Below, one piece after another: positions 32,407 through 49,152 of a stretch of DNA of 64,000 nt. The stretch lies in assembly GCF_900112025.1 (NCBI RefSeq), contig NZ_FOKL01000001.1, positions 1,293,084 through 1,357,083 on the forward strand, read 5' to 3'. The number at the start of each line of letters is the position of its first letter. Position 1 is the first letter of the stretch. The position numbers and the translations under genes are program-made. Below the pieces are notes generated by a model, which was not told where the DNA came from, made no database searches, and saw only the letters and a list, made by a program, of their open reading frames with translations. Source of the DNA: Janthinobacterium sp. 344 (GTDB taxonomy: Bacteria; Pseudomonadota; Gammaproteobacteria; Burkholderiales; Burkholderiaceae_D).

Positions 32407-33870
32407 TCATACACTGCGCAGCGCCCCGTCCAGCTCAGGGTAACGGAAGGCAAAGCCGTCGGCCTGCAGGCGGCGCGGCACCACTCGCTGGCCCTCCACA
32501 ATCAGGTCGGCCTGCTCGCCCAGCAGGGCGCGCATGACCCAGGCCGGCGTGGGCATGACACTGGGGCGGTGCAGCACGGCGCCCGCCACCTGGGCGAAGC
32601 GGCGCTGCTGAATCGCTTCCGGCGCGCAGAAGTTATACGCCCCGCTCACCGCACCCTGTTCGCTGCGGCGCGCCAGGTGGGCGATGCCGCGGACGACGTC
32701 GCGCACGTGCACCCACGTGACCCACTGCTGGCCGCTGCCCAGCGGGCCGCCCGCGCCGAAGCGGACCGGCAGCAGCATCTGCGGCAGCGACCCCTGGTGG
32801 CCGAAGACGAGGCCGAAACGCATGCAGCCCACCTGCACGCCAGATTTCTCCGCCTGGCGCGCGGCCGCTTCCCACTCCTGGCACAGCTGCGACATGAAGA
32901 TCGCTTGCGGCGCGCTGTCTTCGGCCAGTTCCGTGGCGTCGCCCTGCGGCTGTACGCCGTAATAGCCGATCGCCGACGCCGACAGCAGGACTCGTGGCTT
33001 GTGCTGCGCGCGGGCGATCCACGCCACCAGCTCCTGCGTCAGCGCCACGCGGCTGCGGCGCAACGCCGCCTTGCGCGCCGGCGTCCAGCGCTTGCCGAAG
33101 ATGCGCGCGCCCGCCAGGTTGACCACCATGTCGATGCGCTGCGCATCGGGTAATTCGCCGAACGAGCGAATGCAGCGCACCTGGCCATTAAACGTCCACG
33201 CGGCCTGCTTCGGCTGGCGCGTCAGCACCGTCACGGCATGGCCGTCGGCCAGCAAGGCGCCGACCAGCTGCTGGCCGATGAAACCCGTGGCGCCCGTCAC
33301 CAGCACGGATTGCGGCGCGCTGGCAAAGCGCAGGTCTTCCTCTTGCTCCTGCTTCTCCTGCACCTTGCGCCGGCCCAGCTGCCATACGGCATACGCGTCG
33401 CGCAGGCCGGACAGGCCCACGCCCACGCCGCACAGGGCGAGGAAGACGCTGAGCCAGCCATACGGCTGCCACACGAGGGCCGTCGGCAGGCTGGCCCACG
33501 CGCTGCTGTTCAGGGCCAGCAGCGCGATGAAGGCGCCCGCGTTGATCGCCAGCACCGTGTGCGTGACCCGCTCCGTGGCGGGCAGGAGGCGGGTCTGGTC
33601 TTCCACGACGAAGTCCCACAGGGTCAGGACGATTTCCACGCCAAAGACGATGACCAGCACCCAGGCCCATGCCCCATGCCATTCCCAGGCCGCCAGGCCG
33701 ACGAACAACAGGCTGTAGATCAGCGCGCGCGTGGCATGGATGGTCAGTTCCAGGCGCGCCGAGGCCTTTTGCGGCAGCGCTTCCGTGATTTCATGGTGGT
33801 AGATGGTGTCGAAGGCGCCCAGGCAGCCTTGCGCCGCCATCAGTTGCAGGGCCAGCAGATGCGTATTCAT
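32407..33870 (-). CDS. Membrane-anchored TIGR01777-family SDR epimerase
   Basis: A 487-residue fusion. Residues 1 to about 145 form four probable membrane helices (IYSLLFVGLAAWEW, VLVIVFGVEIVLTLWDFVV, INAGAFIALLAL, WLSVFLALCGVGVGLSGL). After a charged linker (QEKQEQEED) follows a complete YfcH/TIGR01777 SDR with VLVTGATGFIGQQLVG, the NLAGARIFGKRW hallmark, SASAIGYYG and a DUF1731-like tail. The SDR substrate is unknown. Its ATG overlaps the stop of the DUF4166 gene by 4 bp; third gene of the GbsR operon. Confidence 0.88.
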   Translation of the reverse strand: MNTHLLALQLMAAQGCLGAFDTIYHHEITEALPQKASARLELTIHATRALIYSLLFVGLAAWEWHGAWAWVLVIVFGVEIVLTLWDFVVEDQTRLLPATERVTHTVLAINAGAFIALLALNSSAWASLPTALVWQPYGWLSVFLALCGVGVGLSGLRDAYAVWQLGRRKVQEKQEQEEDLRFASAPQSVLVTGATGFIGQQLVGALLADGHAVTVLTRQPKQAAWTFNGQVRCIRSFGELPDAQRIDMVVNLAGARIFGKRWTPARKAALRRSRVALTQELVAWIARAQHKPRVLLSASAIGYYGVQPQGDATELAEDSAPQAIFMSQLCQEWEAAARQAEKSGVQVGCMRFGLVFGHQGSLPQMLLPVRFGAGGPLGSGQQWVTWVHVRDVVRGIAHLARRSEQGAVSGAYNFCAPEAIQQRRFAQVAGAVLHRPSVMPTPAWVMRALLGEQADLIVEGQRVVPRRLQADGFAFRYPELDGALRSV

Positions 33871-34511
33871 GGTGTCTCCTTGTGATGCTCCGGTGCGGCC
33901 GATTCGCGGAACACGCCGGCCTGGGTAAACGTGGTGCCGAACAGCGCATGGCGGATCTCGATGCGGATGTTGAACTGCTGCGGCGTGTCGTTGCGGTGGC
34001 ACAGATAGGTCTTGCCGGGCGTGAGCACGCCGGGCAGCGGCAGGCGCCAGCCGAAGATATCGAGAAAATAGCCGTCGCTGGTGAAGTGCAGGTTGCCATC
34101 CTCGACGTGCAGCACGAGCTTCATGCCCAGGCCCATGCCCACGTATTCGAGCACCTCGCCCTTGGCGCTTTCCGCCATGTAAGAGGTAAAACGGATCGGC
34201 GCGCGGCCGTGCAGGCGGTAGGTGCGCTGCTTGAAGATGAAGGGGCAGCCGGGGCGCGAATACACTTCGATATCGACGGGGAAATCCGCGTCGTCATACG
34301 GGATCAGGGCGCCGTCGATGAAGGGGCGCGTCAGCCAGCCGAGGCACTTCCCCAGGCGCGAGCTGGAAAGTTCCGTCAGTTCGCCCCGGTAGTACAGGGG
34401 CTGGCCCGGCGCGGGATTTTTCTCGAAGCGGCGGCGGATGTCCGGATGCAGGGTGAGCCATCGCTCGCCCATCACCTTCTTGAACAGCTCCCCTTCCGAT
34501 GGCCCGTTCAT
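33867..34511 (-). CDS. DUF4166 domain protein
   Basis: A 214-residue protein of the DUF4166 family, role unknown. It begins ELFKKVMGERWLTLHPDIRR and shows HGRAPIRFTSYM and GMGLGMKLVLHVEDGNLHFTSDGY, typical of the family, which often occurs beside or fused to TIGR01777-type SDRs. No signal peptide or membrane span. It is coupled by ATGA overlaps to the regulator gene upstream and the SDR gene downstream. Confidence 0.85.
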   Translation of the reverse strand: MNGPSEGELFKKVMGERWLTLHPDIRRRFEKNPAPGQPLYYRGELTELSSSRLGKCLGWLTRPFIDGALIPYDDADFPVDIEVYSRPGCPFIFKQRTYRLHGRAPIRFTSYMAESAKGEVLEYVGMGLGMKLVLHVEDGNLHFTSDGYFLDIFGWRLPLPGVLTPGKTYLCHRNDTPQQFNIRIEIRHALFGTTFTQAGVFRESAAPEHHKETP

Positions 34512-35071
34512 GACTTGCCCGCCCTTTTCGGTTTGGCCGCCTTGTCGTCCGGGCTGAGGAACTTGGCCACCTTGCCGCCCATGGACAGCATGCGCTGCAG
34601 GGTCGCCGGCGGCAGGTTTTTATAGTCGCTGTAGGTGCTGCTGAGCATTTCCAGGAAGGCCAGCACTTCGCCCATGCGCGCCAGCGTCTCTGGCGGTATC
34701 GCCGCGTCCTGCTCGCCCTCGATGGCGCATTCGCGCAGCACCGTCAGGGTGGGATCGATTTCGCGCCGCTTGCGCTCTTCCATGATGACGCGGAAGATTT
34801 CCCACACATCCTGCAAGGCGACGAAGTGGTCGCGCCGGTCTCCCATCACATGCGTGATGCGCGCCAGGCCCCAGCTTTGCAATTCCTTCAGGCTGTTGCT
34901 GACGTTCGAGCGGGCCACGTTCAGGCTGGCCGCGATGTCTTCCGCCGTCAGCGGCGCATTCGCCAGGAACAGCAGCGCGTGGATCTGCGCCACCGTGCGG
35001 TTGACGCCCCAGCGGGTGCCCATTTCGCCCCAGTGCAGGATGTATTTCTGAGTCGTCGGGCTTAATTCCAT
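34508..35071 (-). CDS. GbsR/MarR-family transcriptional regulator
   Basis: A 187-residue winged-helix regulator. The helix-turn-helix is LTAEDIAASLNVARSNVSNSLKELQ, preceded by HWGEMGTRWGVNRTVAQIHALL, a signature of GbsR-type MarR proteins. The C-terminal helices likely give dimerisation. First gene of a three-gene operon (regulator, DUF4166, SDR). A perfect palindrome directly in front of it is the obvious autoregulatory operator. Effector unknown; GbsR proteins elsewhere sense choline or other small molecules. Confidence 0.9.
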   Translation of the reverse strand: MELSPTTQKYILHWGEMGTRWGVNRTVAQIHALLFLANAPLTAEDIAASLNVARSNVSNSLKELQSWGLARITHVMGDRRDHFVALQDVWEIFRVIMEERKRREIDPTLTVLRECAIEGEQDAAIPPETLARMGEVLAFLEMLSSTYSDYKNLPPATLQRMLSMGGKVAKFLSPDDKAAKPKRAGKS

Positions 35072-35138: not shown

Positions 35139-36263
35139 TCAGGACGGCGCGGGCGGCTGGCCCATGGCCCGCAGGAAGGCTTGCTGCGAGGCGTGCAGCT
35201 GGCCGTAGCCGAGTTCGCGGTACGCGAGGCCGTGGCGCGGCGCCACGTCGGCGATGATGCGCGCCAGCGCCGGGTAGTGGCGGTGGCTCCAGGTGGGGAA
35301 CAGGTGGTGCGTCAGGTGCAGATTCAGGCCGCCCAGCCAGTAACCGAGCCAGCGCAAGGCGCGCGGCTTCGGCGTCCAGTCGCAGGCCGTATAAAAGGTG
35401 TGCTGGTACCAATCGTGCGGCAGGGTGCCATCGGCGCCCGGCTGGAAGAAGTCCACTTCGGCCCAGTGCGTGCCGAGGATCAGCGCCACCAGCGCGCACG
35501 AGGCCAGCATCTGGCCCAGGAAATACGCGCCCAGCACCACGCCCCAGCCCATGCCGTGCTGCTGCAGCACCCACATGGGCAGCGCCAGCACCAGCGCCAC
35601 ATGGCCCAGCTTCCAGCCCAGGAACGACAGCCAGCCGCGCCAGCCCCGCAGGCGGCTGTGCGCGGCCACGGGCGTCTTGCCGAAGCGGTCCAGCCAGTCG
35701 CCGTACCAGTTCAGATACGGCAGCGACAGCGCCGCCACCACGGGCCAGTACAGATATTGATAGCGGTACTGGGGCGCCCAGCGTTGGAACGGCGTCTGGC
35801 GCAGGAAAGGATTCGGTTCCGTGTCGAGGTCATAGCCCTCCACGTTGGCATACGTATGATGGAAATGCACGTGGCGGATGGTCCAGAAATCCGTGTCCAC
35901 GCCCACGGGCAAGCTCACCAGGCGGATCAGCACGCGGTTCAGCCAACCGCTGCGGAAGACGGCGCTGTGGGCCGCGTCGTGCAGGGTGTTCATGGCCAGG
36001 GTCATGGCCGCCACCAGGCAGGCGACATAACTGGCGACAAACGGCCAGGTGCTGCCGGCGCGCAGCGCCAGCACGTACAGCCCCACCGTCAGCACGGCGA
36101 GGAACACGGCCTTCGCATGCAGGCGCGTGTCGCCGAAGCGGTGCCGCCCCTCGCCCGTCAGATAGGCATCGGCGCGGGCGCGCAATTCGCGGCGGAAGGC
36201 GGAGTCGCGGGCAGGCTGGAAACGCAGCGGCGGCAAAGAGGGCACGGGGGGCACAGGCGTCAC
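35139..36263 (-). CDS. Membrane fatty-acid desaturase
   Basis: Inserts double bonds into acyl chains with a di-iron centre in the membrane. The 374 residues contain the three His boxes: TLHDAAHSAVF, RHVHFHHTYAN and LHLTHHLFPTWSH, plus about four to six hydrophobic spans. The start is GTG at 36263, overlapping the upstream stop by 4 bp (GTGA). Last gene of the seven-gene lipid operon. Position of desaturation and the acyl carrier (lipid, CoA or ACP) cannot be told. Confidence 0.92.
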   Translation of the reverse strand: MTPVPPVPSLPPLRFQPARDSAFRRELRARADAYLTGEGRHRFGDTRLHAKAVFLAVLTVGLYVLALRAGSTWPFVASYVACLVAAMTLAMNTLHDAAHSAVFRSGWLNRVLIRLVSLPVGVDTDFWTIRHVHFHHTYANVEGYDLDTEPNPFLRQTPFQRWAPQYRYQYLYWPVVAALSLPYLNWYGDWLDRFGKTPVAAHSRLRGWRGWLSFLGWKLGHVALVLALPMWVLQQHGMGWGVVLGAYFLGQMLASCALVALILGTHWAEVDFFQPGADGTLPHDWYQHTFYTACDWTPKPRALRWLGYWLGGLNLHLTHHLFPTWSHRHYPALARIIADVAPRHGLAYRELGYGQLHASQQAFLRAMGQPPAPS

Positions 36264-37375
36264 GCGCGCGTCCCCGCCGCGGCCGGCCACCACAGGCGGC
36301 GCGCGCCATCGAGGCCATGCGCCAGCAGCGCGGCCAAAAACACCATGCCCCACGCGTCGCGCGCGCCATACCAGCCGAGGAACAGGGCCGGCATGGCCAG
36401 CGCGATGGCCACCCAGGCGATGGCGCCCCAGCGGCGTGCATCGGACAGGCCGCCCAGCGCCAGCGTGCCGCCAAAGATCAGGGCGAACAGGGTGGCTTGC
36501 TGCGCGCCGGCCAGCGCCGCCTCGTGGTTGACGTAATAGATCACCAGGCCAAACAGGATCACGCCGCCGATGCCGATGAACAGCTCGGGCACGTGGAAGG
36601 CGCCGCGCGACTGCCAGTGGGGGAAGCGCGCGCGCAGCCATGTGAACAGTTTGCCGTTGCTGGCCAGCAGGGGGTTGTGCGTGGGTGTCATGCCCTTCAC
36701 GCCATAGCGCATTTCCACGCCGTCCAGCTCCGGCTGGAAGCTGCCGAACAGCCTGTCCCACAGCAGCAGGGTGCCGCCGAAATTGCGGTTGATGTAGCGT
36801 TTATCGGTGCCGTGGTGCACGCGGTGGTGCGAGGGCGTGACCATGAACTTGTCGAGGATGCCGGACTTGTTCACCAGCGCATTGTGGTTGTAGAACTGCA
36901 CCGTGTAATGCAGGGACGAGACGACGAGGAAGATTTCCAGCGGCACGCCCAGCACGGCCAGGATGGCGATGAAGGGAAAATTCGTCAGCGACGAATACCA
37001 GGAATTGCGCACCCCCAGCGACAGGTTGAAATGCTCGCCCTGGTGGTGCACCACGTGCACGGCCCACAGCAGCGGGATCTTATGGTGCAGCCGGTGCATC
37101 CAGTAAAAGCACAGGTCCCACGCAAAGAAGACGAAGACCCATTGCGCGGCCACGGGCCATTGGTCGACGATGTGCAGGTTCGCATGCCGCAGCAGCAGGG
37201 CGAACGCGGCCACTTCCACGCCGCGGAACACCCACATCAGAATATGGCCGGAATTGAGGTTGAAGATGACGTCTTTCCACGGCACCGGCGTCCTGCGCAC
37301 CCATTTGAGGATCAGCAGTTCGGCCAGCACGAAGGCCAGCATGATCAGGAACGACAGGGCGAAGGGATTCATCAT
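36260..37375 (-). CDS. Sterol desaturase/fatty acid hydroxylase superfamily protein
   Basis: A 371-residue membrane di-iron enzyme of the sterol-desaturase/fatty-acid-hydroxylase family. His boxes are FYWMHRLHHKIP, HVVHHQGEHFN and TPSHHRVHHGTD. The family part is the first 260 residues; the C-terminal 110 residues add four hydrophobic spans of unknown use. Such enzymes hydroxylate, desaturate or cleave lipids and ethers. The start overlaps the PAP2 gene by 4 bp; a second ATG follows at once. Confidence 0.92.
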   Translation of the reverse strand: MMNPFALSFLIMLAFVLAELLILKWVRRTPVPWKDVIFNLNSGHILMWVFRGVEVAAFALLLRHANLHIVDQWPVAAQWVFVFFAWDLCFYWMHRLHHKIPLLWAVHVVHHQGEHFNLSLGVRNSWYSSLTNFPFIAILAVLGVPLEIFLVVSSLHYTVQFYNHNALVNKSGILDKFMVTPSHHRVHHGTDKRYINRNFGGTLLLWDRLFGSFQPELDGVEMRYGVKGMTPTHNPLLASNGKLFTWLRARFPHWQSRGAFHVPELFIGIGGVILFGLVIYYVNHEAALAGAQQATLFALIFGGTLALGGLSDARRWGAIAWVAIALAMPALFLGWYGARDAWGMVFLAALLAHGLDGARRLWWPAAAGTRA

Positions 37376-38013
37376 GATGCGGTTTCAGTGGAAAGGGTGC
37401 GGCGCGCCGCCCAGAATACGCGCATTTTGGCCAGCATGCCGCCAGCGATGCCGACAGCCAGGCCGGCCGCCAGGTCGATGCTCACGTGCCGGCGCAGCGC
37501 GATGATGGCGTAGCAGATGGCCACGCCCAGCGCCACGGCCAGCGCGGAGCGCAGCCGGTGGCGCCGGTCGCACAGGGCCCACACGCACAGCAGGGTCAAG
37601 GCGCCATGCAGCGACGGCAGGCAGTTTTGCGTGGAGTCCGCCGCCTGCAGCATGCGCAGCGCCTGCGTGCTCCAGGCAGTGCCGTCGCCCACGGGCGGAT
37701 AGGCCAGCGTGGTGGGATACAGCAGGAAGACCACGCCGCACATGAGGGCGCAAAGCGCCATGGCGCGCGCCAGCCAGCGCACCCTCGCCGCATCGGCCGC
37801 CAGGTAGGCGCAGGGGATCAGGATGAAGAAGGACAAATACAGCCAGATGGCCGAGTCGCTGTAGGGAATGGCGCGATCGAGCGCCGTTTCCGGCAGGAGC
37901 GCCCCCTGCCCTTGCAGCAGGTCGCTGGAAAAATACACGAGGCCGACGCTGCCCCAGCCGGCCAGCAGGTGCAGCATGCGAGAATACAGCGTCATGGTGT
38001 CTACAGATTTCAT
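37372..38013 (-). CDS. PAP2-family membrane phosphatase
   Basis: A 213-residue protein with six likely membrane spans and PAP2 motifs: CLPSLHGALTL (motif 2, Ser-Leu-His) and RRHVSIDLAAGL (motif 3, His-x3-Asp). Motif 1 is not clear. PAP2 enzymes remove phosphate from lipid phosphates such as phosphatidate or prenyl diphosphates at the membrane. The gene is locked into the lipid operon by 4-bp overlaps on both sides. Confidence 0.88.
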   Translation of the reverse strand: MKSVDTMTLYSRMLHLLAGWGSVGLVYFSSDLLQGQGALLPETALDRAIPYSDSAIWLYLSFFILIPCAYLAADAARVRWLARAMALCALMCGVVFLLYPTTLAYPPVGDGTAWSTQALRMLQAADSTQNCLPSLHGALTLLCVWALCDRRHRLRSALAVALGVAICYAIIALRRHVSIDLAAGLAVGIAGGMLAKMRVFWAARRTLSTETAS

Positions 38014-39305
38014 GCGGTGGCAAGGCGCCGGATGCGGCGCCGTTTCATGGTGGGGTCAAAGGACGGCAGTTCGCCGCTCACCATCCACTCCAGGCCATCG
38101 ATGGCCACGCCCAGTCCCTGCAGCACCGTTGCCAGGTGGTCGCGCAGGGCGGCCAGGCCGGCGGCGTCCAGGGCCGCGTGCAGTTGCAAGGCGCAGTCTT
38201 CCGACTGCACCAGGCGGTAGTCGGCGTCCGGCGGCAAGGCTTGCGCGAAGGCGCGCGTCAGCACGTCGGCAAACACGGCGACAGGGGCGCCGCCGCGTGC
38301 AGAGGGAAGCAGCAGCATGTCGTCGCAGCGCCCTTCGATGCCGTCGATGGCGCGCGTGGCGCGGCCGCACGGGCATGGCGTGGCGCGCGCGATCAGGATG
38401 TCGTCCAGGCGGTAGCGCACGATGGGTTGCGTGATGCGCGTAAAGTCGGTAATCACGGGCACAAAACGACGTTCTTCAGCGTCGAGCCACTGCGGCTCGA
38501 TGTGCACGTATTCCTCGTTCAAGTGCAGCACGCCATGCTCGCAGCTGCTGGCGAGAAAACCTTCGGTGGCCTGGTAGATCTCATGCACGGCGCCGAACGC
38601 CTGCGCGATCAGCGCGCGGTCCTGCGCCTCCAGCACTTCGGCCACCGAAATGACTTTTTTCGGCGCCAGCGCCAGGCCGCCATCGAGGACGCGCAAGGCC
38701 AGCTGGCGCAGCACCTGGGCCGGCGCGACGATCACGGACGGTTGATAGCGCGCCAGCTGCGCGCACAGGCTGTCGAACGGTGCGAACAGGTCGTAGAAGG
38801 CAAAAGTCAGCCACGGCGAGCGCACGGCCGTGTACAGATTGCTGTTCGCGCGCAGGAACAGCGCCACGCGCTCGCCGGAAAACAGGCCGTCGGGCAGCGC
38901 CTTGGCCAGCATCACGCCCGCCCACTGCGCCTTTTCGCGGGGGCTGACGGTAAACACGGCGCGCCGCGACGACGTGCCCGACGACAGGCCCACGGTGATG
39001 TCGCCCACGGCGGGCGTGAAGTCGCGGCTATGTTCGGCCGCCATGGCCGCGTCCATCGCCTGCGCCAAAGTCACCCCTTCGGTGTTCATGGCGTCAAAAT
39101 GCTCGAGCATCAGCGCCTTGTTCATGGTCGGCCACTGCGCCAGCGGCAGCTTGCGGTACGGCGCAAAATACGTGCTGCGCTGGCACAAGGTATCGATGAA
39201 ACGCGCCAGCTGCTTGCGCTGGTAGGCGTCCAGCTGCGCGCGGCTGGCGAAACGCAGGCGGCGCGTGCGCCAGTACGCCAGCAACAGCCAGACCATGCGC
39301 TTCAC
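38010..39305 (-). CDS. F390-synthetase-like adenylate-forming enzyme
   Basis: A 431-residue member of the ANL superfamily related to coenzyme F390 synthetase, PaaK and CapK (TIGR02304-like). Visible are GDITVGLSSGTSS (phosphate loop), HEIYQATEGFLASSCEHG (the core YxxTE motif) and IVRYRLDDILIA with the conserved Asp. A short C-terminal lid follows. It probably activates a carboxylic acid with ATP, for ligation or lactone formation. The start is GTG at 39305 overlapping the MBL stop (GTGA); an ATG three codons in is the alternative. Confidence 0.85.
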   Translation of the reverse strand: MKRMVWLLLAYWRTRRLRFASRAQLDAYQRKQLARFIDTLCQRSTYFAPYRKLPLAQWPTMNKALMLEHFDAMNTEGVTLAQAMDAAMAAEHSRDFTPAVGDITVGLSSGTSSRRAVFTVSPREKAQWAGVMLAKALPDGLFSGERVALFLRANSNLYTAVRSPWLTFAFYDLFAPFDSLCAQLARYQPSVIVAPAQVLRQLALRVLDGGLALAPKKVISVAEVLEAQDRALIAQAFGAVHEIYQATEGFLASSCEHGVLHLNEEYVHIEPQWLDAEERRFVPVITDFTRITQPIVRYRLDDILIARATPCPCGRATRAIDGIEGRCDDMLLLPSARGGAPVAVFADVLTRAFAQALPPDADYRLVQSEDCALQLHAALDAAGLAALRDHLATVLQGLGVAIDGLEWMVSGELPSFDPTMKRRRIRRLATA

Positions 39306-40132
39306 GGGCGGCCCGCCACAGGAACATAGTCCGCCGTATCTTCATGCGTGATGCGGATGTGCGCATTGCCCGAGCGGTGCAGCTGGTGCAGCCGGTTCAG
39401 GGTCGCATAATACGGCGCGCGCTTGTGCTGGATGAGGAAGGACAGTTCGGACGGTCCGCGCAGCTGCTGGAAGCTTTCCGGCACCCAGGCCGCGTCGGAC
39501 GCCAGCAAGGTCCAGCCGCCCTCCTGCAGCACGAAGGCGCCGATATGCCCGATGGCGTGGCCGGGCAGGTCGACGATATAGATTTCGCCCGTGCCGCTGA
39601 CGTCGCGCCCGTGCGTAAATGGCAGCAAGGCCGCCGGCAAGGCCGTCTCGGGCACGCTTTCGACAAAAGCCAGGCGGTCGGCGATATCGTTGGGCAGCAG
39701 CTCGGGCACGAAGGCCTGGCGCACGGCGGCCACGCCGGACAAACCGCGCACGGCGTCCCAGCCCGTCTGGGAGGCCATCAGCCGCGCGCCGGGAAAGTCG
39801 CGCAGGCCGGCGATATGGTCGGCATGGAAGTGCGACAGCAGCAAGGTGTGGATATCGCCGGGCGCCACGCCATGCGCGCGCAGCTGGCCGTGCAGCGACT
39901 CATGCTCGTCAAACGAGATGGGCGTCACCCACGCATACAGGCGGTACACGCCTTGCGACGTGGCGGCGCGGAAGTGCTCGGCGTAGCCCGTGTCCCACAG
40001 GTACAGGCCCGCGCGCGTCTCGATCAGGTAGGCGCGCGAGGGGAAGCAGCGGCTGGCCAGCCCGCTGCCCTTCAGGACCATGCACGACGGATGGGTGCAG
40101 TGGCCGACGCGAAACGCGGTGATGCTAGCCAT
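39302..40132 (-). CDS. MBL-fold metallo-hydrolase
   Basis: A 276-residue metallo-beta-lactamase-fold hydrolase with two-metal motifs LLLSHFHADHIAGLRDF (HxHxDH), a later His in DLPGHAIGHIGAF and Asp in LLASDAAW. Closest in feel to the lactonase/AttM branch, so hydrolysis of a lactone, ester or thioester is plausible. The protein has no signal peptide. It overlaps the SDR gene by 8 bp and the adenylating enzyme by 4 bp in the lipid operon. Confidence 0.9.
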   Translation of the reverse strand: MASITAFRVGHCTHPSCMVLKGSGLASRCFPSRAYLIETRAGLYLWDTGYAEHFRAATSQGVYRLYAWVTPISFDEHESLHGQLRAHGVAPGDIHTLLLSHFHADHIAGLRDFPGARLMASQTGWDAVRGLSGVAAVRQAFVPELLPNDIADRLAFVESVPETALPAALLPFTHGRDVSGTGEIYIVDLPGHAIGHIGAFVLQEGGWTLLASDAAWVPESFQQLRGPSELSFLIQHKRAPYYATLNRLHQLHRSGNAHIRITHEDTADYVPVAGRP

Positions 40133-41162
40133 TGCGCTCCTTGCCCACCTTGTGCGCCGCCGCTTCCTGGCGCATCCACTGCGCCGTCAGGGCGATGCCT
40201 TCCTGCAGGCTGACGATGGGACGGTAGCCGAGCACCTTGCGCGCCTTGGCGCTGTCGAGCGTCATGTCGACACTGAGCGCGCCGATGCTGTAGGGCGTGA
40301 GCGCCGGTTCGCGGCGCGTGAAGCGCGAGCCGAACTGCATCAGGCGCGCCACCAGCGCCAGCACGCTGTACGGCACGCTGACGATCTCGAACGGCTGCTG
40401 CAGATGGTCGCAAAACAGGCTGCGCAAGATATCGCACAGGCGCGCCGGTTCGCCATTCGTGATGTTGAAGGCGGCGCCCGACTGTACCGTCTTGTGCACC
40501 GTGGCCAGCCACATCGCATGCACGACGTTGTCGACATAGGTGACGTCGATGGTGGCCGCGCCGCCATTGGGCAGCGGCAGCTTGCCGCCGCGCTGTGCCA
40601 GCACGCGCGCCAGGCGCGGGATCAAGACCTGGTCGTGCGGGCCGAAGATGGCGCGCGGCCGCAGGATCACGCAGGCCATGCCGCGGTGGCGCTCGACGCA
40701 CTCTTGCACCAGCTTTTCCGCCATCGCTTTCGACCGCGCGTACGCGTTGACAAACTTGTCGGGACGGAAGGTTTCCGGCACCTCGCAGCGCTTGCGGTAA
40801 TCGAAATAGATGGCCGGCGTGGAGATGTGCACGAAGCGCGCCACGTGCATGCTGGCGGCCGCGCGCAGCAGCTGGCCCGTGGCCGTGACATTGGCGGCGA
40901 TGAAGTCGCGCTCCGGTCCCCACGGCGAGGACAGCGCGGCGCAATGCCAGACGGTGTCCATGCCGCGCACCAGTTCATCGACCTGGCGCGGCGTCGCCTG
41001 GGCCAGGTCGAGCGCCACGAATTGCGCGCCCATGCGTTCCAGTTCGCGGCCCACGGCGGCGTTGCGGCCGGTGGCGCGCACTTCCACGCCCTGCGCCAGC
41101 AGGGTGCGCACGGCATTGCGCCCCAGCCCGCCCGTCGCTCCCGTGACCAGTATCCGCCTCAT
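40125..41162 (-). CDS. NAD-dependent epimerase/3-beta-HSD-like SDR
   Basis: A 345-residue extended SDR: VTGATGGLGRNAVRTLL (cofactor), HISTPAIYF and NAYARSKAMAEKLV (YxxxK), with a C-terminal substrate domain. Overall it resembles 3-beta-hydroxysteroid dehydrogenase-like reductases, the group that includes OleD, which reduces 2-alkyl-3-keto acids. The ATG at 41162 has an AAGGTGAT ribosome site. It probably reduces the beta-keto product of the KASIII enzyme encoded just upstream. Confidence 0.9.
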   Translation of the reverse strand: MRRILVTGATGGLGRNAVRTLLAQGVEVRATGRNAAVGRELERMGAQFVALDLAQATPRQVDELVRGMDTVWHCAALSSPWGPERDFIAANVTATGQLLRAAASMHVARFVHISTPAIYFDYRKRCEVPETFRPDKFVNAYARSKAMAEKLVQECVERHRGMACVILRPRAIFGPHDQVLIPRLARVLAQRGGKLPLPNGGAATIDVTYVDNVVHAMWLATVHKTVQSGAAFNITNGEPARLCDILRSLFCDHLQQPFEIVSVPYSVLALVARLMQFGSRFTRREPALTPYSIGALSVDMTLDSAKARKVLGYRPIVSLQEGIALTAQWMRQEAAAHKVGKERNG

Positions 41163-41172
41163 CGCATCACCT

Positions 41173-42153
41173 TCACAGATCAAGAATCATGCCGCCGATG
41201 GTCAGGCCGGCGGCCGTGCCCATCATCAGCAAGCGCTGGCCCGCCACGGCCCGCCCCGTCATCACCGCCTCGTGCAGGGCGGTGGGCAGGGATGCGGCCA
41301 CCTGGTTGCCATGGGTTTCAAAGATCTTGATGATTTTAGCATCGGGGACGTCGAGGATGCGCGCCGCATGCGCGAGGCCCAGCGGGCTGGCCTGGTGCGG
41401 CACGACCACGTCCACGCGCTCCAGGCCCGCGCCCGATGCGGTCATGAGTTCCGCGAGGAAATCCGGCATCACCTTGACGGCCAGGCGGAAGACGGCCTTG
41501 CCATCCATGCGGAACAGGTAGTCGCCCGGTTCGCAGCCATTGCGCGGGTTGCGCTCGGTGCCGCCGCCGCGGATTTCGCAGTAGCGCCGTCCTTCCGGAT
41601 ACGTGCCCATCTTGTAGGCGCGGATGCCGGCGCTGCCGTCGCCCCGCTCGACGATGACGGCGGCGGCGCCGTCGCCAAAGATCATCGACGCTTCCGGCTC
41701 GCTCCAGTCGACGCCGCGCGAGGCCAGGTCCGACGAGACGATGGCGATGCGCCGGTAGGCGCCGTCCGCCAGCATCGCGGCGGCCACGCGGAAGGCGGCC
41801 ATGAAACTGAGGCAGCTGGCGTTGACGTCGAAGCTAGGCGTGCCGGGCGGCAGTCCCGCGTGTTCCGCGACAAAACAGGCCGTGTTCGGCAAGGCTTGCT
41901 CGGGCACGCCGCAGGCGCAGATCAGCAAATCGATGTCGGACGGGCGCAGGCTGGCGTTCTTCAGCGCGTCGCGCAGGGCGGCGGCGCCCAGCTGGCTTTG
42001 CGACTCGTCGGGCGCCGCGACAAAGCGCGACAGCACGCCGCTCTTGCGCAGGGTATAGCCGGGCGGATGGCCCAGTGTCAGGTCCAGGCTTGCGGAGGTG
42101 ACGCTGTGCGACGGTACGGCTTTACCCGTCGCGATCAGGCGAACTGGAATCAT
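41173..42153 (-). CDS. 3-oxoacyl-ACP synthase III-like condensing enzyme
   Basis: A 326-residue thiolase-fold enzyme of the FabH/OleA type. The Cys-His-Asn triad is complete: C114 in VNASCLSF, H253 in VVPHQASPLG and N283 in THGNQVAAS. It is not in a fatty-acid synthesis locus, so it is unlikely to be the housekeeping FabH. It joins acyl thioesters by Claisen condensation; chain lengths are unknown. First gene of the lipid operon, so it likely makes the starting beta-keto compound. Confidence 0.9.
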   Translation of the reverse strand: MIPVRLIATGKAVPSHSVTSASLDLTLGHPPGYTLRKSGVLSRFVAAPDESQSQLGAAALRDALKNASLRPSDIDLLICACGVPEQALPNTACFVAEHAGLPPGTPSFDVNASCLSFMAAFRVAAAMLADGAYRRIAIVSSDLASRGVDWSEPEASMIFGDGAAAVIVERGDGSAGIRAYKMGTYPEGRRYCEIRGGGTERNPRNGCEPGDYLFRMDGKAVFRLAVKVMPDFLAELMTASGAGLERVDVVVPHQASPLGLAHAARILDVPDAKIIKIFETHGNQVAASLPTALHEAVMTGRAVAGQRLLMMGTAAGLTIGGMILDL

Positions 42154-42310: not shown

Positions 42311-43252
42311 TTAATCGTGTACCAACGGCGGCAAATCGACACCGCAGTTCTTGCAGAAATTGGCATCGTCATCGAGCCCTTCCTTCAGGCACGTGGGACA
42401 GGTACGCGTAGTGACCAGCTTGGAGCTGCGCTGTACCGTCATTTCGGCGCTGATAATGCCGGTAGGCACTGCCAGGATGCCCCAGCCGAGCAGCATCATC
42501 AGGGAAGCGATGGTGCGCCCGATGTCGGTGCGCGGCGTGATGTCGCCGAAGCCCACCGTGGTCATGGTGCTGATGGCCCAGTATATCGACGTGGGAATAC
42601 TGCTGAAACCGTTATCCGGCCCTTCCACGACATACATCACGGTGCCGAGCAGAAAGACCACCATCATCACGAAGGACAAAAAGATGAGGATCTTGCGCCG
42701 GCTGGCCAGCAGCGCGCGCCCCAGCACCGTGTATTCATGCACGTAGGACGTGAGCTTGAGGATACGGAACATGCGCAGCAGGCGCAAAATGCGCACATCG
42801 ATCAGCACGTGCGCGCCCGGCAGCAGCAAGCCGATGTAGGTCGGCACGATGGCCAGCAAGTCGATGATGCCGAAGAAACTCTTGGCGTAGCGCACCGGGT
42901 GCTGCAGGCAGGACAGGCGGGCGAAATACTCGACCGTAAACAGGATGGTGAAAAACCATTCCAGCGCCGTCAGCCAGGCGCCATAGCGGGCCGCCACGGA
43001 CGCCACACTGCTGAGCACGACAACGGTCACGCTCAGCAGGATGGCGCCGATCAGCACCAGGTCGAAGGCGCGGCCCGTGCGCGTTTCCGCCTCGAAAATG
43101 ACGGTGTACACCTGCTCGCGCCAGCCCCGCTCGGGCTTGCCATATTTTTGCTGCGTTTCCTGCGCGGCAAGCTGTTGCGGCGTCAGGGGGGCCGCCCCGC
43201 TCTTTGTCGCGGCCTTCATGCGGATAATCTGGTCGGTAGTTTGCTCATACAT
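42311..43252 (-). CDS. Voltage-gated-type K+ channel with C-terminal zinc ribbon
   Basis: A 313-residue six-helix channel. S4 carries Arg at every third position (R154, R157, R160, R163), and the pore filter is TTVGFGD (about 232-237) before S6. The 45-residue tail ends in a four-Cys zinc ribbon, CPTC...CKNC (C285, C288, C300, C303). Kv-like bacterial channels carry K+ across the inner membrane. The added ribbon suggests metal, redox or protein binding as gating input. It stands alone. Confidence 0.92.
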   Translation of the reverse strand: MYEQTTDQIIRMKAATKSGAAPLTPQQLAAQETQQKYGKPERGWREQVYTVIFEAETRTGRAFDLVLIGAILLSVTVVVLSSVASVAARYGAWLTALEWFFTILFTVEYFARLSCLQHPVRYAKSFFGIIDLLAIVPTYIGLLLPGAHVLIDVRILRLLRMFRILKLTSYVHEYTVLGRALLASRRKILIFLSFVMMVVFLLGTVMYVVEGPDNGFSSIPTSIYWAISTMTTVGFGDITPRTDIGRTIASLMMLLGWGILAVPTGIISAEMTVQRSSKLVTTRTCPTCLKEGLDDDANFCKNCGVDLPPLVHD

Positions 43253-43308
43253 TGATTATTGTATAGATAATTTGCCGCGCACGGCGGCCCGCTGCGTGCG
43301 GGCTAGGG

Positions 43309-45060
43309 CTAGGGTGCCTTCTTCGCCAGCAGCACGGCATTGCGCCTGTCGCGCTCGGTTTGCACGATATCGGCTGCGCGCGCCTCGCTCAGGCCCGCCG
43401 TGTGCAGCACGGTGGCCGTCAGCTGCAGCGCCGCTTCCAGCGCTTCGGGCACGACCAGGGTGGCGCCCGCCTGGATCAGGGCCACCGCATGCGCCTCGTC
43501 GCGCGCCCGCGCATACACGGGCAGCTGCGGATATTCGCGGCGGATCGACTTGACGGCGTGCAGCACGGACGCCGCATGGTCCATGGTCAGCACCACGGCG
43601 GCGGCGCGGTCCGCATTCACCTTCTGCAACAATTCCGCGCGCGACGCATCGCCGAAATACACGGGAAAGCCGCGCGGATGCAGGGTCGTCACCAGGCGCG
43701 CATCGTTTTCAATCGCCACATAGGCGATATCCTGTTCCGTCAGCACCTTGGCCAGCAACTGCCCCACCCGGCCGAAACCGGCGATGATGACGGTGCTGCC
43801 CTGCGGCGGGCGGGCGCCTTCGGCCAGGTCGGCCAGCTGGTGGTGGTGGCGCTTTTCCCACCAGTTGCCGAACCCGCGCGCCGCTTTCGCCAGCGCCGGC
43901 GTGGCGAACAGGCTCAGGCCCACCACCAGCATGACGAACTGCGCCACCTGCGGCCCGATCAATTTCGTGCCCAGCGCATACGCGACGACGATGAAGGCAA
44001 ATTCGCCGCCCTGCCCCAGCAGCACGCCCGTTTCCACGGCGCGCCCCCAGTGAAAGCCGCCGATGCGGAAAATCACGCTGATGACCAGGGTCTTCAGGAA
44101 AAACAGGCTCAGCACGGCCAGGGGGATCAGGACCGGCGACTTGAGAATCTCGCGCACATCGATCTGCATGCCCACGGACATGAAGAACAGGCCCATCAAC
44201 AGTCCCTTGAACGGCTCGATCGTCACTTCCACTTCATGGCGAAATTCCGTTTCCGCCAGCAGCAAGCCCGCCAGCAAGGCGCCCAGCGCCATCGACAGGC
44301 CCGCCAGATACGTCAGGCCCGCGATGCCCAGGGTGCTGAGCAGGGTCAGGGCCATGAAGACGTCGGGCTGGTGTTTCTTGACGAAAAACTGGAACAGGGG
44401 ACGGATGACCCGGCGCCCGAGCAGGTAAATCAGCAGGATGGCGCCGGCCGATTTCACGGCCGCAAAGCTGAGCAGGTAGGCCAGGTCGTCGCTGCGCCCG
44501 CTGGCGAACACGTCGATCAGGATGAACAGCGGCACCACCATCAGATCCTGGAACATCAAAATGGAAAAGCCCGCCTGCCCCGCCGGTGTCTGCAGGGAGC
44601 GCTGGTCCGTGAGCAGCTGCATCACGACGGCCGTGGACGACAGCGACAGCACCAGCCCCAGCACGATGGATGCTTCCAGCGACAGGCCAAAGTAATACGC
44701 CACGCCGCCGATCAGGCAGGCGCTGACAGCCACCTGCCCCACGCCCGCGCCAAACACCCAGCGCCGCAGCGCCCACAGCCGTTCCGTCGACAGTTCCAGG
44801 CCGATCATGAACATCAAGAACATCACGCCCAGCTCGGCCAGACCGCTCACCTGCTCGGCGCGGACGAACGAGAAATACGTCAGCCACGTGAAGTCGCCGG
44901 CCCACAGGCCAAAGCCGAACGGCCCGAACAGGGCGCCGACGGCCAGGAAACCGAGCACCTGGTTGACCTTCAGGCGTTGCAATAGCGGAATGAAAATTCC
45001 GGCCAGGGCGAGAAACAGCAGGGTTTCTCGCAAATACGGTAAGGCGTGCTGCTCTTCCAA
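43309..45060 (-). CDS. CPA2-family monovalent cation:proton antiporter, KefB/KefC type
   Basis: A 583-residue antiporter: about 12 membrane spans of the Na+/H+ exchanger domain (with GLELSTERLW and FQDLMVVPLFIL) and, from about 410, a cytoplasmic RCK/TrkA-N domain (TVIIAGFGRVGQLLAKVL, with VYFGDASRAELL). KefB/KefC pairs respond to glutathione adducts; whether this one does is unknown. The start must be TTG at 45060, because a TGA lies in frame 21-23 bp further upstream. Confidence 0.93.
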   Translation of the reverse strand: MEEQHALPYLRETLLFLALAGIFIPLLQRLKVNQVLGFLAVGALFGPFGFGLWAGDFTWLTYFSFVRAEQVSGLAELGVMFLMFMIGLELSTERLWALRRWVFGAGVGQVAVSACLIGGVAYYFGLSLEASIVLGLVLSLSSTAVVMQLLTDQRSLQTPAGQAGFSILMFQDLMVVPLFILIDVFASGRSDDLAYLLSFAAVKSAGAILLIYLLGRRVIRPLFQFFVKKHQPDVFMALTLLSTLGIAGLTYLAGLSMALGALLAGLLLAETEFRHEVEVTIEPFKGLLMGLFFMSVGMQIDVREILKSPVLIPLAVLSLFFLKTLVISVIFRIGGFHWGRAVETGVLLGQGGEFAFIVVAYALGTKLIGPQVAQFVMLVVGLSLFATPALAKAARGFGNWWEKRHHHQLADLAEGARPPQGSTVIIAGFGRVGQLLAKVLTEQDIAYVAIENDARLVTTLHPRGFPVYFGDASRAELLQKVNADRAAAVVLTMDHAASVLHAVKSIRREYPQLPVYARARDEAHAVALIQAGATLVVPEALEAALQLTATVLHTAGLSEARAADIVQTERDRRNAVLLAKKAP

Positions 45061-46528: not shown

Positions 46529-48193
46529 CTACAGCGCCTGTAAATCTTCCCCGCGCATGCCCACCAGCAAGGCGCGCCCATCGGGCAGCACGCGGAATTC
46601 GCCATAGCGGGCCTTTTCCCAGCGCGCCGCCTCGCCTTCCTTGAAGAACCAGGCATCGCTGACCAGTACCCAGTTGCCATTCTTCGGCGTCAGCTCGAGC
46701 AGGAATTCGCCCGGTGCCAGCGCCTCGTTGGTGTACGGGCGCAGCAGTTCGGCCACGCCGCGCGCATCGCGCCGGGCCACCACGAGGGGCCGGCCCGGCG
46801 CCCGCTCCACGCTGGCCAACGTACTCAGGACGCCCAGGTTGACGAAATTGAGGCGCATGTAGTCGCCCTGCATCAGCGAACGGGGATCGACGGGTTCCAG
46901 CGCCACGAAGATGGCCTCGCCCTTGGCGATCAGCTGCTCTTTCTGCCAGATGCCGCCATTGGCGACCAGCAGCACCAGCAGCAGCCCCGCCAGCACGCCC
47001 AGGCGCACATGCCGGCTTTGCGCCGCCACGGGCGCGGGTGTGCTTTCCACCAGGTGCAGCACCTTGCCGCGCGTGGCCAGCCACGACAGCGCGCACAGGA
47101 GTCCGCCGGCCACGGCCAGCAGCGCCGCCTTGCTGGCCAGCGGCCAGGCCAGCTGATAATAAAAGCTGCCGATGATCCACGCCGCCGCCAGCGCGGCCGC
47201 CACGGCCACGCGCGTGCGCCCGCTCGTCAGGCAATACGCGAGGACCAGCAACACGGGACCGAGCGCCGGCATGAACCACGCCAGCACGATCAGCACCAGC
47301 GCCACGCCGATGGCGGGCAACTGGCGCAATGCGGGCCAGCGCCAGCCCGTCCAGACGGCGGCCGCCACGGCCAGCACCAGCGACACCCCATTCAGCACCT
47401 GCGCATACCAGGCGGCGGCCTGGTGCCGGGTCACTTCGCGCGTCACTTCGCCAACAAAGCCACCGCCCACGCTGGCGCCCAGCATGAAGGTCATGCCGGA
47501 CCAGGCGACCAGGCCCAGCAAGATGGCCAGCACCCAGCCCGTCGACAGCGATTCCAGGAAGGCGGCGATGGGCGCGCCGCGGCCATCGTTGAAGGCCTGC
47601 TTTTGCAGCCAGTGCGCGCCCAGCCACAATGCCAGGGCCAGCATCCAGGCCAGATACAGCTGCGTGGGATCATTCTCGAAAATCCAGTCGCGCCCGCTAT
47701 CGACGATGCCCAGCGCCAGCAGGCCGCAGGCGACGACTCCCAGCAGCACGCGCAGCCAGTCGCGCGGCAAGGCGGCGGCCACCACCAGGCAAGCCAGGCA
47801 CAGCAGCAGCGACGCCATCTGCGTGGAATAGTCGCGGTACAAGGCATAGCCCAGCAAGCCGCCGCCCACCAGCAGGCAGGGCACGGCCAGTTGCTCGACA
47901 AACAGCGCCACGCCCCGCATGCGGATCACCATGACGGCTGCCACCAGCACGATGGCCGCCACGACATACGCGCCGGGTCCATGGCGCACGATGCTTTCCA
48001 GCCCCACGCCCAGCGCCACCACCAGGGGAATGGCGGCCAGCCAGGCGCCGAACGCCGTCATCAGCACCAGCGGCCACGGCCGGACATCCTGCACGGGCCG
48101 GATGGCGCCGGGCGGCAACAGGCCGGCGCGCGTGGCATCGTCGATCAGGGTATCGAGCGCATCATCATTGCGCTGGGTATTCACGCCGCTCAT
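46529..48193 (-). CDS. DUF4401-GDYXXLXY fusion membrane protein
   Basis: A 554-residue protein joining two families usually encoded separately: an N-terminal DUF4401 part with many membrane spans (about residues 20-360) and a C-terminal GDYXXLXY domain (after about 385) whose hallmark is MQGDYMRLNF. The last 150 residues are probably periplasmic. The start at 48193 overlaps the stop of the DUF2157 gene by 4 bp and is preferred over an ATG 8 codons upstream. Function unknown; the DUF2157-DUF4401-GDYXXLXY set is conserved. Confidence 0.85.
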   Translation of the reverse strand: MSGVNTQRNDDALDTLIDDATRAGLLPPGAIRPVQDVRPWPLVLMTAFGAWLAAIPLVVALGVGLESIVRHGPGAYVVAAIVLVAAVMVIRMRGVALFVEQLAVPCLLVGGGLLGYALYRDYSTQMASLLLCLACLVVAAALPRDWLRVLLGVVACGLLALGIVDSGRDWIFENDPTQLYLAWMLALALWLGAHWLQKQAFNDGRGAPIAAFLESLSTGWVLAILLGLVAWSGMTFMLGASVGGGFVGEVTREVTRHQAAAWYAQVLNGVSLVLAVAAAVWTGWRWPALRQLPAIGVALVLIVLAWFMPALGPVLLVLAYCLTSGRTRVAVAAALAAAWIIGSFYYQLAWPLASKAALLAVAGGLLCALSWLATRGKVLHLVESTPAPVAAQSRHVRLGVLAGLLLVLLVANGGIWQKEQLIAKGEAIFVALEPVDPRSLMQGDYMRLNFVNLGVLSTLASVERAPGRPLVVARRDARGVAELLRPYTNEALAPGEFLLELTPKNGNWVLVSDAWFFKEGEAARWEKARYGEFRVLPDGRALLVGMRGEDLQAL

Positions 48194-49152
48194 GCCGCCT
48201 CCTGGCGCGTGCGCCACAAGATGCCTTGCACGGTCAGCGCCAGCAGCACGGCGGCGACCAGGCCCAGCATGATCAGCTTGCCCACCTCGCTGCCGCCGCC
48301 ACCGTTGAACAGCAAATACATCAAGCCCCCCACCAGCAGGGTATTGAGGCCCAGCGCCACGGCGCTCAGGCCAAACACGTCAAAGAACTGACTCGTGGCC
48401 AGCACCGTCGCGGCGACAGCCAGCAAGGCCAGCCCCGCCCAGTACGGCGACCCGACCTCGCTGCCGAACAGGGCGCTGACGGCCGTGCCCGTGATGAGGA
48501 TGGTGGCCAGCACCAGGCCCAGGCGCAAGGCCCAGCTGCCCGCGCCCGTCCAGCGCGCCAGCAGGGGCGAGACGAACGCACAGCCGGCCAGCACGACCAG
48601 CCAGCCGCTGACGAAAATGCCGATATCGTTCGAATCGATGCGCCAGCTGTGGCGCGCATGCGCCTGCATCCACAGGGCGGCGGCCGTGGCCAGGATCAGC
48701 ATCCATGGCGTCCACAGCACGTCGCTGCGCGCCACCAGGCACAGGGGCAAGGCCAGCGCGGCCCACAGGGCGAACAGCTGCCACGGATCGGCGCCCGTCT
48801 GGTAGGTCTGGCCGAAATACGCGAACAACCCGCCGATGGCCAGCAAGGCCACCAGCAGCAGGGGCACGCGCGCCTTCGGCACGGCGAACGCGCCCACGCA
48901 GGCGGCGGCAAACACGCCTTGCAGCAAGGCAAAGCGGCCCATGCGGCCCAGCTCTTCCCAGTTGGCGGCGACCCAGAAGATCAGCCCCATGCCCAGCAGC
49001 GCGGCACCGAGCACGGCCACGCCGCGCGGCAGCCAGTAGGCCAGGCGCGCCGGTTCGCGCTGGAAGCCGGCCACTTCCTGCAATTGCCGGGTTTGTTGGG
49101 CATCGAGCGCGTTGGCCGAGGCGAGCTGGTACACGGCGAGGCGTAAATCCAT
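48190..49152 (-). CDS. DUF2157 membrane protein
   Basis: A 320-residue protein with a soluble N-terminal DUF2157 stretch (VYQLASANALDAQQTRQL, then REPARLAYWLPRGV) and about ten membrane spans. No catalytic motif is visible. First gene of the pair with the DUF4401-GDYXXLXY gene; the family is nearly always found with such partners, so they probably form one membrane complex. The ATG at 49152 was chosen because the upstream residues are unlike the family. Confidence 0.86.
   Translation of the reverse strand: MDLRLAVYQLASANALDAQQTRQLQEVAGFQREPARLAYWLPRGVAVLGAALLGMGLIFWVAANWEELGRMGRFALLQGVFAAACVGAFAVPKARVPLLLVALLAIGGLFAYFGQTYQTGADPWQLFALWAALALPLCLVARSDVLWTPWMLILATAAALWMQAHARHSWRIDSNDIGIFVSGWLVVLAGCAFVSPLLARWTGAGSWALRLGLVLATILITGTAVSALFGSEVGSPYWAGLALLAVAATVLATSQFFDVFGLSAVALGLNTLLVGGLMYLLFNGGGGSEVGKLIMLGLVAAVLLALTVQGILWRTRQEAA

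Follow-up and report, generated by a model that had tools for sequence, protein, structure and literature searches.

We found that a stretch of 64,000 nucleotides from Janthinobacterium sp. 344 (contig NZ_FOKL01000001.1; hereafter the window) carries on its minus strand, from position 42153 to 35139, a seven-gene operon made up of a four-gene core and a tail that other bacteria exchange for different genes. In 5′ to 3′ order the operon encodes a β-ketoacyl synthase III-like condensing enzyme (KAS), a short-chain dehydrogenase/reductase (SDR), a metallo-beta-lactamase-fold (MBL) hydrolase, an F390-synthetase-related adenylating ligase of family TIGR02304, a PAP2_3 membrane protein, a fatty-acid hydroxylase and a fatty-acid desaturase (assigned with Pfam and NCBIfam). 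We propose, at a probability of about 0.4, that its product is a ceramide-like lipid of the membrane or surface, formed without the use of serine palmitoyltransferase, where "ceramide-like" refers to the shape and head-group chemistry of the lipid and not to an amide bond. An earlier, sequence-only reading had taken the seven genes for one co-inherited lipid operon encoding a whole pathway with no described counterpart. The conserved unit stood up to the comparison below, and neither a matching pathway nor a description of the operon or its route was found in the open-access PubMed Central (PMC) literature; the idea of a fixed set of seven genes did not survive, since the tail is exchangeable.

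Organization and conservation of the operon

All seven open reading frames were present, and Pfam and NCBIfam agreed with the families named in the sequence-only reading. The gene for the KAS (326 aa; ACP_syn_III and ACP_syn_III_C domains) occupies 41173..42153, and its stop is separated by a 10-bp gap from the gene for the extended SDR (40125..41162; 345 aa from the ATG at 41162), which in turn overlaps by 8 bp the gene for the MBL hydrolase (39302..40132; ATG start, 276 aa). The remaining four joints are 4-bp overlaps leading to the ligase (38010..39305; GTG start, 431 aa), the PAP2_3 protein (37372..38013; ATG start, 213 aa), the sterol-desaturase-type hydroxylase (36260..37375; ATG start, 371 aa), and the desaturase (35139..36263; 374 aa from the GTG at 36263, the overlap reading GTGA). 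Recomputation of all six joints thus reproduced exactly the five overlaps of 4 to 8 bp and the single 10-bp gap reported before. The starts of the SDR and the desaturase were chosen by us; the open reading frames as called begin farther upstream, at TTG 41183 and at GTG 36761, the latter within the hydroxylase gene.

The operon is spread well beyond Janthinobacterium, in many genera and including some strains of Escherichia coli. Among 80 named loci, which are the best 80 of at least 573 confirmed loci and lean towards close relatives, the core order KAS-SDR-MBL-ligase was kept in 76; the genera represented include Pectobacterium, Serratia, Rahnella, Erwinia, Providencia, Escherichia, Klebsiella, Ralstonia, Burkholderia, Pseudomonas, Chromobacterium and Gilliamella. 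The core was incomplete in the other four: a KAS match at E 1e-3 was lacking in L116 and L118, and L137 and L176 are short contigs. Behind the 76 complete cores, PAP2 and hydroxylase genes formed the commonest tail (58 loci), accompanied by a downstream desaturase in 51, by an upstream one in 3, and by none in 4, of which L120 and L136 lie at contig ends; one locus, on a short contig, had PAP2 only, and 17 had neither PAP2 nor hydroxylase in place, although two of these (L160 and L177) stop soon after the ligase. The core order was also found in five annotated plasmid records (ten plasmid matches were opened, two of them unannotated and read by tblastn only), and in two Bacilli an ATP-grasp gene was inserted into the core.

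The hydroxylase belongs to a subfamily that occurred only beside a TIGR02304 ligase in the sampled genomes. With up to 10 candidates scored per genome, full-length matches to its profile (at least 547 bits) were obtained in 13 of 195 genomes of the family, all 13 in the window's own genus, and with up to 4 scored per genome in 4 of 398 genomes of the phylum, the window's genome being counted in both samples; the next-best matches reached 210 and 216 bits. Each full-length match started about 2 kb from a TIGR02304 match above cut-off. This restriction, together with the core order in 76 of 80 loci, indicated that the association of the genes is more than chance, as expected of the co-inherited operon first suggested. 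The distance matrices of the seven proteins also agreed for 21 of 21 gene pairs (rho 0.41 to 0.87; 0 of 499 permutations) in a Mantel test on 34 dereplicated loci out of the 72 that have all seven genes.

Four kinds of tail followed the core. Tail A, present in the window, consists of PAP2, hydroxylase and one or two desaturases. Tail B, seen in Citrobacter (L161), Leminorella (L157), Mangrovibacter (L138 and L140) and Buttiauxella (L152), consists of a second SDR, a GT21 glycosyltransferase, a 193-aa protein and a GT1-like glycosyltransferase. Tail C is marked by an ATP-grasp gene near the core at 14 loci, in part with a GNAT-like gene (8), a Rieske gene (8) or PAP2 (L141); its carriers come from the same family (L075-L078), from other families or classes (L083-L087), from Paraburkholderia (L090), from Uliginosibacterium (L141) and from others. 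Tail D is a nonribosomal peptide synthetase (NRPS) module, found in L062 and L114, which share it at 100%, and in L111. The Xenorhabdus and Snodgrassella loci had little beyond the core, with a PAP2 gene upstream in two from Xenorhabdus (L143 and L151). Tails A and B stood in tandem in a Leclercia metagenome-assembled genome (L130) and in Klebsiella sp. BIGb0407 (L149, which lacks the 193-aa protein), an arrangement suggesting that both act on one product.

The tail B glycosyltransferase of L161 matched Pfam Glyco_transf_21 at 129.5 bits, well over the threshold of 21.7, and when compared by phmmer with solved structures at E ≤ 0.01 it retrieved only two ceramide glucosyltransferase sequences (4e-15, over residues 3-365). 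For the 193-aa protein (L161 13402-13983) there was no Pfam or NCBIfam match at E 0.001. Homologues of it were present in L130, L138, L140, L152 and L157; a 215-aa protein in a Fusobacterium record (L096) holds the same place behind GT21, the likeness being one of position only.

Enzymes and proposed product

Residue conservation was read from alignments of up to 117 loci, which include some genomes twice, so that their rows are not independent and contain near-duplicates. The catalytic triad of the KAS, C114-H253-N283, was identical in 112 of 112 aligned homologues, in accord with the full Cys-His-Asn triad noted from the sequence. The closest solved structures were MxnB (4v2p, 193 bits) and CorB (191 bits), from the myxopyronin and corallopyronin pathways, ahead of the best FabH-type enzyme (159 bits), and the motifs QAxP and NASCLSF were common to the KAS and this pair. 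In OleA, which we take to be a member of the PRK09258 family, the residue immediately preceding the conserved dimer-loop Pro is a catalytic Glu; at this position the cluster enzymes had Leu (104) or Ile (8), whereas the PRK09258-type enzymes encoded in L203-L205, two of the three above cut-off, had Glu. The hydrophobic residue is a further likeness to the MxnB/CorB pair: according to passages of one paper (PMC4578411), these are two-chain joiners placed in the FabH clade, with V94 where PpyS has Glu105. The Leu or Ile leaves two modes of action for the KAS: coupling of an acyl chain with a beta-keto thioester, or extension of one chain from malonyl-acyl carrier protein (ACP). We infer that it is a chain-joining enzyme of the MxnB/CorB type, set apart from these by its surroundings, as no polyketide synthase (PKS) gene was found among the ten annotated genes of the Janthinobacterium locus and the SDR, MBL and ligase genes come next.

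The best NCBIfam model for the SDR was that of the 2-alkyl-3-oxoalkanoate reductase OleD (NF042422), at 170.7 bits far below the equivalog cut-off of 580. In the MBL hydrolase the dinuclear metal site was complete, each of its ligands (H101, H103, D105, H106, H192, D213 and H263) being kept in at least 97% of 117 sequences, and the nearest folds to its predicted model (predicted local distance difference test, pLDDT, 92.7) were lactonases. The ligase belongs to TIGR02304, the F390 synthetase-related proteins, scoring 491.5 bits against a cut-off of 251.9, and no difference from this family was evident in its sequence. It is PaaK-like and gave no Pfam AMP-binding match; K421 and the residues of the adenylation motifs were identical in all 19 sequences compared. 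In the open-access PMC literature we found no paper assigning a reaction to TIGR02304, nor the phrase "F390 synthetase-related". Apart from the ligase, the operon proteins matched general families only or fell under equivalog cut-offs, a further example being the ornithine-lipid hydroxylase model OlsE (NF052566; 71 bits against 475).

The sequence-only reading had assigned a dephosphorylation step to the PAP2_3 protein, and this we rejected. PAP2 lipid phosphatases carry the motifs KX6RP, PSGH and SRX5HX3D; in 83 homologues the first and third were absent throughout (0/83 each) and the second had the form PSLH in all 83, two of which also contained a PSGH string, while H136, H176 and D180 were invariant. 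Phosphatases nevertheless ranked close in the fold comparison. The predicted model (pLDDT 95.7) gave as its top Foldseek matches inositol-phosphorylceramide synthase with ceramide (7e-5), the sphingomyelin synthase-related protein SMSr with ceramide (1e-3) and Aur1 (3.5e-3), followed by LpxE (0.05) and PgpB (0.93), and the VIA Z scores of the first three were 13.8, 13.5 and 13.4 over 192-209 residues; the VIA list omits families that Foldseek did not rank, and absence from it carries no conclusion. Together with the missing phosphatase motifs, the modelled fold favours reading the protein as a head-group transferase.

Histidine boxes were invariant in 79 homologues of the hydroxylase, as were the three of the desaturase in 96. 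A sequence search against solved structures returned one match for the hydroxylase, at E 0.35, and none for the desaturase or PAP2. Since the catalytic residues are kept, all seven proteins are probably working enzymes.

From these assignments we propose the following scheme, in which the order of the steps is likewise conjectural. The ligase would activate a carboxylic acid as an adenylate and hand the acyl group on, either at the start or before a conjugation. The KAS would couple this acyl chain with a second thioester, either beta-keto or malonyl, the SDR would reduce the beta-ketone to a hydroxyl, and the MBL hydrolase would release the product from a thioester or lactone. The PAP2_3 protein might then use a membrane phospholipid as donor of a phospho head group for the hydroxylated lipid, in the manner of inositol-phosphorylceramide and sphingomyelin synthases, and the hydroxylase and desaturase could afterwards modify the chains in oxygen-dependent reactions. 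In some enterobacteria an enzyme of the ceramide glucosyltransferase type would replace, or join, the PAP2 tail.

Sphingolipid synthesis employs a reductase, a hydroxylase of the SUR2/SCS7 type, a desaturase, a head-group transferase of the Aur1/SMS type and a ceramide glucosyltransferase, and hydroxylase and desaturase families like those of tail A also modify ceramides. The operon resembles this set in the Pfam families of its hydroxylase and desaturase, in the sphingolipid synthase-like fold of PAP2_3 and in the GT21 protein of tail B; it differs in having a KAS III-type enzyme in the place where serine palmitoyltransferase would be expected. No serine palmitoyltransferase was detected by Pfam and NCBIfam among the seven operon genes and the three that follow, the ten genes to which the search was limited. 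We use the term "ceramide-like" because of the GT21 matches, the motifs and fold of PAP2, and the hydroxylase and desaturase families, combined with this lack of serine palmitoyltransferase in the operon. If the proposal holds, there is a second way to ceramide-like lipids besides serine palmitoyltransferase, and TIGR02304, a widespread ligase family, gains a function.

Several observations weigh against this proposal. The phosphatase LpxE had a VIA Z of 12.5 (148 residues aligned of a 165-residue chain), 0.9-1.3 below the sphingolipid synthases and 0.9 below Aur1, so that the fold favours a transferase and does not prove it; many acid phosphatases scored 8-11, and a Z near 13 can reflect an arrangement common to helical models. 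Among the solved folds listed, the MBL hydrolase was closer to lactonases than to known thioesterases. The best NCBIfam model for the tail B GT21 protein of L161 was the hopanoid glycosyltransferase HpnI (TIGR03472), at 109 bits against a cut-off of 310. Tail A contains no gene that would supply an amino group, and "ceramide-like" may therefore hold for shape only; the product as a whole is deduced from the genes. To judge from the ATP-grasp, GNAT-like, Rieske and NRPS proteins of other tails, and from the loci where the core stands almost alone, the core does not always yield a ceramide analogue. Scattering of the genes in relatives, which the sequence-only reading had singled out for checking, was not the rule, the core order being so widely kept, but there were exceptions. 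On megaplasmid pBASL58 of Pseudomonas sp. Leaf58 (L094) the four core genes were interspersed with others across about 10 kb, and the Fusobacterium record had a different order, namely a second SDR, a GT21 protein (32% identity), the 215-aa protein, SDR, MBL, ligase and KAS. As to co-inheritance, the hydroxylase search scored few candidates per genome, and shared species history also adds to the agreement of the distance matrices.

The operon in Escherichia coli

By megablast, which misses copies much below 85% identity, homologues of the operon were found in 672 of 5,426 complete E. coli genomes, in 671 of which at least 80% of the stretch was covered in one place, as was the junction between narI and the KAS gene (671 genomes). 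The E. coli proteins were 47-54% identical to those of Janthinobacterium, protein by protein, and in the two E. coli records opened the KAS gene started 111 bp behind narI. Carriers among the rows listed included Nissle 1917, LF82, JJ1886, O25b:H4-ST131, FDA strain Seattle 1946 and ATCC 25922. The operon was not found in K-12 MG1655, and we rejected the idea of a remnant there: blastn of the interval from narI to tyrT against the Nissle stretch gave no match inside the seven genes, the only matches being the end of narI and the region behind the desaturase, with its repeats and tRNAs. On the same strand narI also lies upstream in five Serratia loci, in Leclercia and in two Escherichia sp.; as this position is common to these genera, the site beside narI is old in the order, and the state of K-12 is probably due to loss.

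We consider it doubtful, though worth stating, that bacteria, among them Nissle 1917, LF82 and ST131 of E. coli, use a route to ceramide-like two-chain lipids in which a chain-joining KAS, SDR, MBL and ligase build the backbone and a sphingolipid synthase-like or ceramide glucosyltransferase-like enzyme would add the head group, all without serine palmitoyltransferase, and that this route accounts for the 3-hydroxy long-chain lipid of Nissle 1917. Were this true, well-studied gut and clinical strains would make a lipid class out of reach of K-12, with a desaturase and a hydroxylase of a kind that, to our knowledge, textbook E. coli lacks, and there would be a testable genetic source for lipids confined to certain strains, like that attributed to Nissle 1917.

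Two further E. coli records that carry the operon, L088 (NZ_CP141085.1) and NZ_AP040233.1, are labelled plasmid or are plasmid-sized (94.5 kb). In L088 the operon sits with narGHJI, purU, galU, hns and tdk; given these chromosomal neighbours, it is seemingly a piece of chromosome in a plasmid record, or wrongly labelled. In CP054248.1 at least the ligase was present.

Alternative products

The main rival, which we regard as unlikely, is a single-chain reaction resembling synthesis of the Pseudomonas quinolone signal (PQS). The ligase would form an acyl thioester, the KAS would add C2 from malonyl-ACP, the SDR would produce the 3-hydroxyacyl chain, and the MBL hydrolase would free a long-chain 3-hydroxy acid, which could then be hydroxylated, desaturated or given a head group. 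The hydrophobic residue of the KAS, shared by FabH and MxnB in place of the OleA-type Glu, is consistent with this, and a "PQS biosynthetic enzyme" was among its matches (3h76, 91 bits), although MxnB and CorB outscored the FabH-type enzymes. In fold type the KAS, MBL hydrolase and ligase correspond to PqsD, PqsE and PqsA, which we count in its favour; the operon resembles the PQS module in keeping such enzymes together and differs from it in the added SDR and membrane enzymes and in lacking a second KAS pair like PqsB/C. Against this reading, a free 3-hydroxy acid would need neither a head-group transferase nor a ceramide-type glycosyltransferase. Raised 3-hydroxyoctadecaenoic acid (C18-3OH) has been attributed to Nissle 1917, which has the operon while K-12 MG1655 does not, in passages of two reviews (PMC8995832, PMC11372123), and this operon could be its source; however, a review passage names Holdemanella biformis as a further producer of C18-3OH, and no source was found that ties the compound to these genes.

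We hold it improbable that the core builds a small acyl warhead which the tails conjugate to amino acids, sugars or phosphate, giving a diffusible signal or other specialized metabolite. The ATP-grasp, GNAT-like, Rieske and NRPS proteins of the tails fit such a role. A Tn5 mutant of Pseudomonas syringae pv. actinidiae in a "Coenzyme F390 synthetase" gene (IYO_RS29540) had reduced virulence, according to a table of PMC9823363; this gene may be the ligase of the present operon. All seven genes are carried by P. cerasi (L131) and P. caricapapayae (L134). Against this, the seven-gene form includes three membrane-lipid enzymes but lacks an exporter.

Still less probable, in our view, is a non-orthologous version of OleABCD, in which joining and reduction would be followed by beta-lactone formation by the ligase and ring opening or decarboxylation by the MBL hydrolase, to give a beta-lactone, a 2-alkyl-3-hydroxy acid or an internal olefin. 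The Ole pathway comprises a thiolase-fold condensing enzyme, the reductase OleD, the adenylating enzyme OleC and the hydrolase OleB. Its four activities correspond one to one with those of the core, where they lie side by side; OleD was the best NCBIfam model for the second SDR of tail B (114 bits) as well as for that of the core, the MBL fold is lactonase-like, and the NRPS module behind the core in L114 recalls lipstatin-type clusters, which have one likewise. Membership of OleABCD itself was rejected, as the KAS has no Glu, the SDR is under the cut-off and the hydrolase has the wrong fold, and we kept the pathway as a functional parallel. The ligase is TIGR02304/PaaK-like in place of OleC, and the operon adds head-group, hydroxylase and desaturase genes. 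A hydrocarbon product of the Ole type, which the sequence-only reading had considered, is disfavoured by the lack of the OleA-type Glu in the KAS and of any OleB-type alpha/beta hydrolase among the operon genes.

That the core is an alternative acyl-chain starter system for housekeeping remodelling of known phospholipid acyl chains fits the general family matches of all proteins but the ligase, and is very unlikely given the exclusive hydroxylase subfamily, the kept order and the ceramide-type tails, which point to a dedicated product.

Three known systems were also set aside. HpnA and HpnI were under their cut-offs, which left no link to hopanoids, no search for a squalene-hopene cyclase having been made; the phaseolotoxin Pbo cluster combines a KAS III with NRPS and PKS domains, and the text on it nowhere mentions "F390"; and for ladderane clusters there was one passing mention of an F390-type ligase.

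Neighbouring genes

The host genome is 6.44 Mb, and the nearest named relatives of the window are Janthinobacterium loci with 83-93% ligase identity (L099-L108 and L174). Twelve stretches from the genus had the order KefB-Kch-KAS-SDR-MBL-ligase-PAP2-hydroxylase-desaturase-regulator-DUF4166-TIGR01777; in the other genera compared, the operon alone persists and the flanking genes are not kept.

Downstream by 67 bp lies a gene for a MarR/GbsR-like regulator (34508..35071, minus strand; Pfam, NCBIfam), followed on the same strand by one for a DUF4166 protein (33867..34511) and one for a TIGR01777-family oxidoreductase (32407..33870; 487 aa from an inner ATG). These three genes (32407-35071), overlapping by 4 bp, trail the operon in the compared Janthinobacterium loci, with the exception that the regulator was not found in L106; in none of the other genera compared was the trio seen beside the operon. 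A weak promoter-like match lies ahead of the regulator (35128-35100), but the promoter and terminator scan gave few sites (4 against 1.6 expected, and 14 against 8.1) and was not used as evidence.

Ahead of the operon, on the same strand, the compared Janthinobacterium loci have genes for a Kch-type potassium channel and a KefB-type antiporter (42311-45060 in the window), named from a reading of their sequences in place of a family search. Five Ralstonia loci have a KefB-like gene about 8 kb away from the ligase, on the opposite strand. Farther off in the window, positions 46529-48217 encode a single 562-aa protein with DUF4401 and GDYXXLXY domains.

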